A model generated the notes under the pieces. It made no database searches. It was given only the letters and a program-made list of their open reading frames with translations, and was not told where the DNA came from. The position numbers and the translations under genes were made by a program. 64,000 bases of DNA from Betaproteobacteria bacterium (lineage in GTDB: Bacteria; Pseudomonadota; Gammaproteobacteria; Burkholderiales; Burkholderiaceae_C): positions 1-64,000 of the forward strand of contig RGCL01000007.1 in assembly GCA_009919175.1 (NCBI GenBank), given 5' to 3'. The stretch's first letter is position 1; every line of letters starts with the position of its first letter. Below, piece after piece: positions 41,163 to 45,755 of this stretch.

Positions 41163-43550
41163 ATGACAGATCTCAAACTGGCAAATGAATTGGTTATCCC
41201 ATTTGAGTCATTGCGAATGAAGCACGTGGACATCGTTGGTGGAAAGAATGCCAGTCTTGGCGAGATGATTTCGCAACTGCCCAATGGCGTCAAAGTGCCA
41301 ACGGGATTTGCAACCACTGCTCATGCATTTAGGCTTTTCCTCAAGCATGACCAACTGGATCAACGGATTCAAGAAGCACTGTCAACTTTGGATGCGGACA
41401 ACATCACCATGCTGACAGAGACCGGGGGCAAAATCCGTGCATGGATCGAAGCACAGCCTTTTCCTAAAGAACTTGAGCAGGCCATTCGGAATGCCTTCTT
41501 GGCACTGGATCAGAGGCATGACGGGTCCTACGCTGTTCGCTCATCAGCCACGGCAGAGGACTTGCCGGATGCTTCCTTTGCGGGCCAGCAAGAGACCTTC
41601 TTGAATGTCAGCGGGATCGAGCACGTACTGGCAAAAATCAAAATTGTTTTTGCATCGCTTTATAACGATCGTGCCATCAGCTATCGTGTTCACAAAGGCT
41701 TTACCCATGCCGAGGTGGCCTTGTCTGCTGGCGTGCAAAAAATGGTTCGTTCAGATTTGGCTTCGTCTGGTGTCATGTTCACCATGGATACCGAGTCAGG
41801 CTTTGACCAAGTGGTTTTCATCACCGCGAGCTATGGACTGGGTGAGATGGTGGTTCAAGGTGCCGTGAATCCGGATGAGTTTTATGTGCACAAACCCATG
41901 CTAGCGGCCAACAAAATGGCCCTCATCCGAAAGAACCTGGGTTCCAAACTCAGCCAAATGGTGTTTGCAACCTCTAACGAGCATGATGAAACTGGTCATT
42001 GGGTCAAAACCCTGGATGTGCCTGTAGAAATGAGGAACCGTTATTGCTTGTCGGACTCGGATGTTCTGGCATTGGCGCGCTTCGCAGTGACCATTGAGAA
42101 TCACTATGGTCGTCCCATGGACATTGAATGGGGCAAGGACGGAGCTGATGGCCAACTCTATATTCTTCAGGCCAGACCAGAAACGGTGAAGAGTCGTCAA
42201 GGTCAATCCGAGCAGCGCTTCAAACTCAAGGGTAAGGGTGAGGTGCTTACGCACGGGCGTGCGATTGGTCAGAAGATTGGCACTGGCAAGGTCAGACTAG
42301 TTCACGGCACTCACGAAATGGACAAGGTCCAGGCCGGAGATGTTTTGGTAACTGACATGACTGATCCGAATTGGGAGCCGGTCATGAAGAGAGCGAGTGC
42401 CATTGTGACCAACAGAGGAGGGCGAACCTGCCATGCAGCCATCATTGCGCGTGAACTCGGTATTCCTGCTGTAGTCGGTTGTGGCACTGCAACTGAGGCT
42501 TTGTCAGATGGTGCTTTGGTTACCGTGAGTTGTGCTGAGGGTGATACAGGCTTTGTCTATGAAGGGCTCATTGAGTCCGAAATAGTGACCATTGAGCGGG
42601 GACAAATGCCACCAATTTCCACCAAAGTCATGATGAATGTGGGTAATCCTCAATTGGCCTTTGATTTTTGTCAATTGCCCAATGAAGGAGTTGGATTGGC
42701 CCGATTGGAGTTCATCATCAACAACAACATCGGTGTGCACCCCAAAGCCATTCTTGACTATCCAGCCGTAGACTCTGATTTGAAAAAGGCTGTCGAATCG
42801 GTGGCAAGAGGTCATGCTTCCCCCAGAGCTTTTTACGTTGACAAGGTTGCAGAGGGTGTTGCTACGATTGCTGCCGCGTTTTGGCCCAAGCCTGTCATTG
42901 TTCGGCTATCAGACTTCAAATCTAACGAATACCGAAAACTGATCGGTGGCAGTCGCTATGAGCCTGAGGAGGAAAACCCGATGCTGGGTTTCAGGGGTGC
43001 AGCAAGATATATTTCTGACGATTTTGCTGAAGCATTTGCAATGGAATGTGAGGCTTTGCATCGCGTCCGTTTTGACATGGGGCTCACCAATGTACAGATC
43101 ATGGTACCTTTTGTTCGAACGCTTGATCAGGCGCGATTGGTCGTCCAGGCCTTGTCCAGGCATGGGCACACGCGTGGACAAAATGAACTCAAGCTCATCA
43201 TGATGTGCGAGATACCGAGTAATGCACTACTGGCTGATCAATTTCTTGAATTTTTCGATGGTTTTTCTATTGGTTCCAATGATCTGACGCAACTCACTTT
43301 AGGTCTTGATCGCGATTCCGGCATGGAGCTGCTTGCAAAAGACTTCGATGAGCGCGATCCAGCGGTCAAGGCGCTTCTGAAAATGGCAATCACTGCGTGT
43401 CGACAACAAGGAAAGTATGTTGGTATTTGCGGTCAAGGTCCCAGTGATCACCCGGACTTTGCAAAGTGGTTGATGGATGAGGGGATCGCATCGATTTCAT
43501 TGAATCCAGACACAGTCATGGAAACTTGGAATCGTTTGGCCGAGCATTGA
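41163..43550 (+). CDS. ppsA: Phosphoenolpyruvate synthase
   Basis: Converts pyruvate, ATP and water to PEP, AMP and phosphate for gluconeogenesis from C2/C3 substrates. The 795-residue protein has the N-terminal ATP-binding domain ([40 protein letters not shown]), the swivelling domain with catalytic His424 in [15 protein letters not shown] and the C-terminal barrel ([30 protein letters not shown]). GGAGG lies five bases before the ATG. The divergent ppsR supports regulation by phosphorylation. Confidence 0.97.
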
Positions 43551-43563
43551 TGTTTGCAACACA

Positions 43564-43749
43564 ATGCGCTTGACTCGAACATTGGTCTTCATCTGGGCGA
43601 TTTTTTCGCTAGTTCTTTTATTTGCTTCCTCTGCTTACTCGCAAGAGTCGCGTTTGCAATATTGGCTTAGCTTGATTGCGCCAATTGGTTTTTTTGCGCT
43701 CTCTGTTGTTGCCGCTTGGCTAGATGACCTTGGCAGACGGGACAACTGA
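43564..43749 (+). CDS. Small two-helix membrane protein, possible symporter partner
   Basis: A 61-residue protein with two hydrophobic segments (TLVFIWAIFSLVLLFASSA and LSLIAPIGFFALSVVAAW) and a charged end (LDDLGRRDN). It sits two bases before the large symporter and 13 bases after ppsA. Related symporters in other proteobacteria are often preceded by a small two-helix subunit (DUF4212 type); this protein has the same size class and position but no sequence match I can confirm. It could alternatively carry a signal peptide (SSAYSQ) and one anchor. Confidence 0.6.
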   Translation: MRLTRTLVFIWAIFSLVLLFASSAYSQESRLQYWLSLIAPIGFFALSVVAAWLDDLGRRDN

Positions 43750-43751
43750 AC

Positions 43752-45755
43752 ATGATCATTAAAAAAGCCGTTGCTTTTTTAGGCCTCTTCATGGTCATTG
43801 GCATTGCGTTGATCGGACTTGATCGTTTGGCGTTATCGCGAGAGTCAATCAATTTTCTTTTTTTGGCTGTTTCTATTTTGGGCTATGCGGTGGTTGGATT
43901 GGTATGCAGAACCACCAACATGGATCAATATTACGTAGCAGATCGATCTGTGAGTGCGGGCTATAACGGTCTGGCGACTGCAGCTGATTGGCTTTCCGCT
44001 GCGTCTGTGATCGGGCTTACCGGATTGCTCCTGAGCAATGGCTTTGTTGGTACTGAGTACGAAACTGGGGGGCTGGTTTACATCATGGGATGGACTGGTG
44101 GTTTTTGTTTGTTGGCATTTTGGTTTGCAGCCCCTATTCGACAGAGTGAGGCCATCACGATTCCAGATTTCCTGGCCAAGCGCCATGACAGCCATTGGGT
44201 ACGTTGGATAGCTGCTATTGGCACACTTGCTTGCTCGATTGTTTATTTGATTGCTCAAATTTATGGAATAGGTCTGGTGACCTCCATGCTCTCAGGTCTG
44301 ACTTTTGAGCTGGGCGTATTACTGGCCTTGGGCGGAGTTTTACTTTGTTCTTTTTTGGGTGGGATGCGGGCAGTGACCTGGACGCAGGTGATTCAGGCAT
44401 GTGTCATTGTTTTTTCTATGCTCGGATTGGTGATGGCCGTTTCATGGAAAACCAATGGGAGCTTGATATTTCCTCTTGCAGCTGATCAATCGCTGGCGCA
44501 TTTGGAAGTTTTGACACAGCGCCATGTTACTCAAGAGGATGAAGTCTCCACTCGCCAATTCATGATGCAACGCGTTGAGCGACTGCAGTCATTGCTCAGT
44601 CATCCAGTTGAGTCGTACGAGGAAGAGCGCAGAAGTGCCAGCATTCGGCTGGAATTTCTGCGAGCAATCAATGCACCACTGAGAGACATTCATCGGCTCG
44701 AAAATAGCCCATACCTCAGCAAGGATGGCTATGCGGAGGTCATCAGGTCTTGGACCGAAGAACTTCATATCCTTGAGCAGCAACTCAATCAGCCCACAGC
44801 CTTCACTATTCTGGAGCCACCAAGGAATTCCAATCTTTCACATTCCATAGGCCTGTTCTTTTGTCTTGCGTTGGGCACTGTTTCTCTGCCACATTTACTC
44901 ATTCGGTCCGGTACAACCGTTAATTCACGTGCAGCACGTCATTCCATGGTCTGGACATTATTGATCGTGGCTTTTGTTTATGTCTGTGCGAGCTCGATGG
45001 CGGTAATCATGAAAGACACGCTACTGACTGACTTAATTGGTCGATCTTTTTCAGCACTTCCGTCTTGGATGGATCAACTCAGATCATCTGGGCGAGCTTT
45101 AGTTCAGCTTACCGATTGGAATAATGATGGATGGGTTCAATTGGGTGATGTTCGGATCATCAATGACCACCTCATTTTGGCCATCCCAGAAATTCTTGGC
45201 ATTTCGCCCATCTTTACTGGTTTGATCGCAGCAGGAGCTTTGGCCGCTGCACTCTCAACTGCGGACGGACTGTTGTTGACCATCTCCAATGCATTGGTTC
45301 ATGACATGTATTTTCAGACTTTTCACCCCAATACCAATTCTTTAAGAAAAGTCATGGTGGGAAAAATTGTGTTGATGATCGTTGCATTGACGGTTGCCTG
45401 GATCACGACCCATAGACCAGTTGATATCCTTTATTGGGTAGCTTGCGCTTTTTCACTGGCGAGTTCCACGATTTTCCCAGCACTGTTTTTGAGTGTTCAT
45501 TGGAAAAGAGTGACTACAAGCGGTTTGATCGCCGCGATGACGTGTGGCATGTTGGCCGCAGTCCTGTACATTGGTATGAATCAACCTCAGGTCGGAAAGG
45601 CCCTGGGGCTTGCCCCAGGTGAACTGCGGATATGGAACATAGAGCCTATAGCCGCTGGCGTTTTGGGTGTTCCCATTGGCTTTATATTTGGCATTCTTAT
45701 TAGTTATTTGAGTTCATTTTGGAACCTTGGGAACAAGCAGGCAAAAGCCCTATAA
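43752..45755 (+). CDS. Sodium:solute symporter (SSS family, VC_2705-like) with large insert and EF-hand-like loop
   Basis: A 667-residue inner-membrane transporter of the sodium/solute symporter superfamily. ATAADWLSAASVIGLTGLLL and the later AGALAAALSTADGLLLTISNAL match the sodium-binding core helices of ActP/VC_2705-like proteins. Two features stand out. A charged, helical insert lies at about residues 244-350. At 455-466, DWNNDGWVQLGD has the spacing of a calcium-binding EF-hand or dockerin loop. The substrate is probably a short organic acid, which fits ppsA next door, but this is inference. Confidence 0.85.
   Translation: MIIKKAVAFLGLFMVIGIALIGLDRLALSRESINFLFLAVSILGYAVVGLVCRTTNMDQYYVADRSVSAGYNGLATAADWLSAASVIGLTGLLLSNGFVGTEYETGGLVYIMGWTGGFCLLAFWFAAPIRQSEAITIPDFLAKRHDSHWVRWIAAIGTLACSIVYLIAQIYGIGLVTSMLSGLTFELGVLLALGGVLLCSFLGGMRAVTWTQVIQACVIVFSMLGLVMAVSWKTNGSLIFPLAADQSLAHLEVLTQRHVTQEDEVSTRQFMMQRVERLQSLLSHPVESYEEERRSASIRLEFLRAINAPLRDIHRLENSPYLSKDGYAEVIRSWTEELHILEQQLNQPTAFTILEPPRNSNLSHSIGLFFCLALGTVSLPHLLIRSGTTVNSRAARHSMVWTLLIVAFVYVCASSMAVIMKDTLLTDLIGRSFSALPSWMDQLRSSGRALVQLTDWNNDGWVQLGDVRIINDHLILAIPEILGISPIFTGLIAAGALAAALSTADGLLLTISNALVHDMYFQTFHPNTNSLRKVMVGKIVLMIVALTVAWITTHRPVDILYWVACAFSLASSTIFPALFLSVHWKRVTTSGLIAAMTCGMLAAVLYIGMNQPQVGKALGLAPGELRIWNIEPIAAGVLGVPIGFIFGILISYLSSFWNLGNKQAKAL

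Follow-up and report, generated by a model that had tools for sequence, protein, structure and literature searches.

Dx[DN]xDG loops are known outside EF-hands (Rigden et al. 2011, PMC3123361). According to the main text of that paper, the later ligand of proven sites lies 2 to 112 residues downstream of the core, and strand-loop-strand is one of the contexts, other than the EF-hand, in which such sites are found. The word 'symporter' is absent from the same main text. In PutP, closure of the outer pathway involves the loop between TM7 and TM8 (extracellular loop 4), as described in the review PMC7918813, whose main text is without the terms calcium, Ca2+ and EF-hand.

Here we describe a Dx[DN]xDG loop that by model lies in the same loop of the same fold as the PutP element, in a VC_2705-family symporter encoded in a 64,000-nucleotide stretch of DNA from a betaproteobacterium ('the window'). 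A sequence-only reading had singled the loop out as EF-hand/dockerin-like and had raised calcium gating of transport. We favour, at a probability of about two in three, a calcium site at the tip of a beta-hairpin that serves as a constant structural clamp of the periplasmic lid. The motif class is already known; the symporter context, the variation in loop length and the replacement of the motif by cysteines seem to be new, and no earlier description of a calcium site in the VC_2705 family was found in searches of open-licence PubMed Central papers.

The symporter and its gene neighbourhood

Features of the window discussed here are collected in Table 1. The symporter belongs to the VC_2705 family, with 481.1 bits against TIGR03648 (cut-off 320.75), and to the SSF family, with 159 bits against the Pfam model (cut-off 22.8). 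Its structure was modelled with AlphaFold2 from an alignment of the window protein and 49 relatives (mean pLDDT 83.9, pTM 0.84). Fold comparison, by re-alignment of the best Foldseek chains, gave CHT1 (9bim) as closest match (Z 42.4, rmsd 3.2, 487 residues aligned), a LeuT fold, followed by SiaT (Z 36.0), SGLT1 (Z 31.6) and NIS (Z 31.2). Pfam DUF2818 was weakly matched by 44 of the 50 members of the symporter alignment (best E 0.0028).

Table 1. Coordinates of the symporter, its parts and its upstream neighbours in the window
Feature	Position	Strand	Remarks
Phosphoenolpyruvate synthase gene (presumed)	41163..43550	+	upstream of symporter, same strand
61-aa ORF	43564..43749	+	two hydrophobic stretches; directly before symporter, in DUF4212 position
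VC_2705-family sodium/solute symporter	43752..45755	+	667 aa; TIGR03648, Pfam SSF, CHT1/SGLT-type fold
Extracellular loop 3, all-helical insert (model)	44469..44789	+	residues 240-346, about 107 residues
Extracellular loop 4 (model)	45036..45206	+	residues 429-485, between core TM7 (392-428) and core TM8 (486-521)
Parts of extracellular loop 4 (AlphaFold2)			helix 438-445, strand 451-453, metal loop, strand 467-469, helix 474-482
Dx[DN]xDG loop, DWNNDGWVQLGD	45114..45149	+	residues 455-466; predicted ligands D455, N457, D459, W461 backbone carbonyl, D466

The genome holds a second VC_2705-family copy (L081, G000:C69), which scores above the window copy (805.6 bits), is preceded by a DUF4212 gene and has the loop sequence DVNKDGILQLGE. 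The window copy differs from the family at large in belonging to a long-branched clade, in having Asp rather than Glu at loop position 12, and in the small upstream ORF, which falls under the DUF4212 cut-off.

That ORF matches DUF4212 at E 0.051 and MAP17 at E 0.39, both below cut-off; MAP17 is named in the titles of SGLT complexes among the fold matches. In three named plasmid records the symporter gene is immediately preceded by a DUF4212 gene. Small hydrophobic ORFs occur at the same place in five of the eight same-genus loci (L092, L094, L095, L144 and L145), and the three scanned (L095, L144, L145) gave no match to DUF4212; the scanned stretch before the symporter had no small ORF in L003, L019, L093, L096, L112 and L149. 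The ORF is possibly a diverged small subunit, to judge from its position and hydrophobic stretches; with its match below cut-off and no match among the scanned same-genus ORFs, its identity as a DUF4212 protein is not established.

The product of the next gene upstream, which we take from its sequence to be phosphoenolpyruvate synthase, has a homologue upstream of the symporter at all eight same-genus loci and at 38 of 80 loci gathered with a six-peptide search, several of which are too short upstream to tell. Acetate, pyruvate or a similar short carboxylate is the probable substrate of the symporter.

A conserved motif in extracellular loop 4

Translation places DWNNDGWVQLGD exactly at the residues given in Table 1, with Asp1, Asn3, Asp5, Gly6, Val8 and Asp12 as the sequence-only reading had them. 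The loop thus has an acid or Asn at the ligand positions 1, 3, 5 and 12 of a 12-residue EF-hand loop, and the core plus later acid of a Dx[DN]xDG loop. Shuffling the protein 20,000 times at constant composition produced the pattern D-x-[DN]-x-D-G-x5-[DE] twice, and among the 165 stop-to-stop open frames of at least 100 aa in the window it is found in the symporter alone.

In the window model the loop lies between two short strands. A second AlphaFold2 model, with a Rhizobacter relative (L029) as first sequence, has the same order of elements, with strands 431-433 and 447-449; pLDDT of the block at the loop is 85 in the first model and 92 in the second. Both models agree with an extramembrane location, and the loop is a buried helix in neither. 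The flanking helices (392-428 and 486-521) are presumably core helices 7 and 8 of the LeuT-fold topology, an assumption that, together with the account of the TM7-8 loop in PMC7918813, also sets the side of the membrane. Since the loop is flanked by these two helices by order, it falls in extracellular loop 4, which by the model is the lid of the outer gate, on the periplasmic side. The loops carry too few charges for the positive-inside rule to bear on the topology.

Conservation was assessed by searching 299 genomes of the phylum with the TIGR03648 profile and keeping matches at E 1e-100 or better. This draw matched 80 genomes at 82 places, of which the window's genome accounts for two, and the 81 places other than the window's own were aligned. 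Asp, Asn/Asp and Asp are found at positions 1, 3 and 5 in 77 of the 81. Among these 77, positions 1 and 5 are always Asp, position 3 is Asn in 76 and Asp in one, position 6 is Gly in 76, position 8 is always hydrophobic and position 12 is Glu in 76 and Gly in one; the ligand positions 1, 3, 5 and 12 are thus conserved in 77, 77, 77 and 76. At six non-ligand positions of the loop the commonest residue accounts for 40-75%. The place of Asp472, six residues past position 12, is also taken by an acid in 76 of the 77; this acid may be part of the site or may cap the helix that follows. In the remaining four members (L212, L213, L218 and L219) the motif is missing and the loop contains two cysteines.

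The loop has 12 residues in 18 of the motif-bearing members and 17 to 74 residues in the other 59, whose 5 to 62 extra residues align ahead of positions 11-12. Retention of the acid at position 12 through insertions of this size is hard to explain except by a shared ligand role. Extracellular loop 3 is long in 17 of the 81 members, all with a 12-residue metal loop; of the 64 with a short loop 3, 63 have the longer loop at the metal site (59 with the motif, 4 with cysteines), the exception being L211. The existence of two old clades could be enough to account for this correlation.

The motif is present in both deep bacterial subfamilies of VC_2705 in a FastTree tree (loop columns included; 15 of the 30 loci L113-L142; long-branch warning at the window). 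The pattern D-x-[DN]-x-D-G was found in none of nine SSF loci below the TIGR03648 cut-off. The six-peptide search, which included TDWNNDGW, leaned towards the motif, and so our claim of conservation rests on the profile-based draw. Left out before alignment were the window copies L082 and L143, the broken L096, and, below cut-off, L083, L084, L097-L101, L105, L107 and L109; six loci (L102-L104, L106, L108 and L110) had no match to the window protein. At position 6, Gly gives way to Arg, His, Lys or Asn in 13 of 80 and in 3 of 27 relatives.

The suspicion that the loop might simply be common in the VC_2705-like branch was therefore correct: across the sampled phylum the loop is a hallmark of this branch, and we reject the idea that it is a peculiarity of the window gene. 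A chance resemblance confined to the window protein is, in our estimate, almost certainly wrong, given its rarity among shuffles and, as the strongest evidence, conservation at the same family position.

The comparison with EF-hands and dockerins held in part. The loop shares with EF-hands the ligand spacing 1, 3, 5, 12 along with Gly6 and hydrophobic 8, but it is single (one core motif in the protein) and is flanked in the models by strands, in the window protein and in L029 alike, rather than by helices. Neither the full-length protein nor a 40-aa segment matched Pfam EF-hand up to E 1; EF-hand_5 matched two of seven segments at 13.4 and 10.9 bits, below its cut-off of 25.9; and EF-hand is absent among 25 of the 39 Pfam families matched by 50 relatives. 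With dockerin type I the loop shares D-x-N-x-D-G-x-V-x3-D, including Asp12. Dockerin type I was the sole Pfam match of a 41-aa window segment, at 12.8 bits against a cut-off of 22.9, and a 40-aa segment gave no match; the duplicated repeat of dockerins is also missing, and the loop sits in a membrane protein. Identity as a true EF-hand or dockerin was accordingly rejected on modelled flanking structure, profile score and pairing. The nearer likeness is to the Dx[DN]xDG loops described in the main text of PMC3123361, with which the window loop shares the six-residue core, the hydrophobic residue two after Gly, the downstream acid, the strand-loop-strand setting and a predicted extracytoplasmic site; calcium in the window loop is a prediction only.

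Within the same-genus group of eight proteins the window copy is on a long branch (FastTree). The seven readable orthologues, about 50% identical, all keep D, N, D, G and D, and position 12 is Asp in all eight, in contrast to the Glu of nearly all motif-bearing members of the phylum draw. In EF-hands, Asp at position 12 weakens or shifts binding. By analogy, this dockerin-like state may mean weaker or less selective binding in the window's clade. One further same-genus copy (L096, G020:C8), interrupted by three stop codons (one TGA, two TAA), was not counted.

Replacement and loss of the motif

Cysteine-type relatives were sought in 150 genomes of the order of G238, which is within the window's phylum, outside its class, and probably alphaproteobacterial; the best named plasmid matches of the query have about 40% identity to it. 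With a cysteine-type protein as query and a threshold of E 1e-100, 41 genomes matched at 44 places, all of which were read. The motif is found in 22 and exactly two loop cysteines in the other 22; because the query was itself of the cysteine type, this ratio gives no frequency and only the mutual exclusion is usable. None of the 44 has both motif and cysteine pair, a single cysteine, or neither. Among the motif-type members, L244 has Ser at position 3 and L253 has Asn at position 5. Both types occur together, in one copy each, in two genomes: G549 (L245 and L257) and G604 (L227 and L258).

A tree made without the loop columns requires a minimum of one change between motif and cysteines, with the motif on both sides; the long-branched L253, L254 and L261 were left out of it, though kept in the count of 22 and 22. 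The single cysteine group is weakly supported (44/77), and two changes were required by a rougher tree made earlier, in which the three long rows were included and two rows were mistranslated. With the motif on both sides of the cysteine group, it looks as if the motif was replaced by the cysteine pair. The two cysteines are probably disulfide-bonded, and on our best reading a disulfide can take the place of the calcium site. As disulfides are formed outside the cytoplasm, the swap is a further argument that the loop is periplasmic.

Loss without replacement was seen among the 80 peptide-search loci, of which 53 have D-x-[ND]-x-D and 27 lack it. Burkholderia (L033, for example) accounts for 26 of these 27, and only one of 27 Burkholderia loci retains the motif. 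The motif-less rows all keep Asp5 and Gly6, and 26 keep an acid at position 12; they have Ile, Leu or Val at position 3, and Glu replaces Asp1 in 17. A cysteine pair was found in none of the 27. Two haloarchaeal members of the VC_2705 family lack the loop altogether. The Burkholderia losses indicate that the site is dispensable, and together with the haloarchaeal absence that it is not essential to the fold everywhere.

Structural clamp or calcium sensor

The motif, its conservation, its position in the fold (by model) and its mutual exclusion with a cysteine pair are observations; metal binding by the loop, the identity of the metal as calcium, a bond between the replacing cysteines and a stiffening role in the lid are what we infer. 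One Ca2+ would be held by Asp455, Asn457, Asp459, the Trp461 carbonyl and Asp466, locking both ends of the hairpin together and so fixing the shape of the lid. In the calcium-rich periplasm the ion would probably be bound permanently, as a structural part. Evidence against the site comes from Asp12 in the window's clade, the loss in Burkholderia, the loop-less haloarchaeal members, the substitutions of Gly6 and the sub-threshold EF-hand and dockerin scores. That a cysteine pair stands in for the motif in a whole group of relatives makes a constant clamp likelier than a sensor.

Gating or sensing, in which Ca2+ would exchange in the physiological range to open or close the lid and uptake would track periplasmic calcium, was the possibility that drew attention to the loop. 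Binding could be weaker and exchangeable where position 12 is Asp, as in the window's clade, and the site is in the core helix 7-8 loop, whose PutP equivalent helps to close the outer pathway (PMC7918813); being located in the lid of the gate, it keeps gating in play. Against this, calcium and Ca2+ are absent from the main text of the same review, the site is single and so has no EF pairing, a cysteine pair, unable to sense calcium, replaces the motif in 22 of the 44 relatives, and two genomes have one copy of each kind. Gating thus has no direct support, and we consider it improbable: the cysteine replacement and the loss in Burkholderia fit a structural brace better.

The same loss, in 26 of 27 Burkholderia copies, speaks for a turn rich in Asp, Asn and Gly that binds no metal and is held by hydrogen bonds from side chains to backbone. 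Such a turn would not need the distant acid that is kept across insertions of 5-62 residues, nor near-invariant ligand positions in a loop whose six other positions vary, and we think it slightly more improbable than gating. Binding of another divalent ion in vivo is a choice we hold to be very improbable. In some EF-hands Mg2+ is favoured by Asp12, the residue of the window's clade, and the main text of PMC3123361 records manganese in one Dx[DN]xDG site that had been crystallised. Against this, Glu is at position 12 in 76 of the 77 motif-bearing members of the draw, with Gly in one, and the ion usually bound outside the cytoplasm is calcium.

The metal-site signature is near-universal in the draw (77 of 81 members) and belongs to the gate lid of sodium symporters from a widespread family; the favoured reading of it is a constant calcium clamp. 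In a wider form of this reading, which we regard as unlikely, Ca2+ would in most VC_2705-family symporters shape loop 4 and the opening and closing of the outer gate, carboxylate uptake would depend on calcium, and one bacterial lineage would have freed itself of this dependence by means of a disulfide. If the clamp is real, calcium, or the disulfide that replaces it, would be a cofactor to supply in purification, assay and structure work, and the natural swap between motif and cysteines would make it possible to learn if an ion is required by the lid or if clamping is enough.
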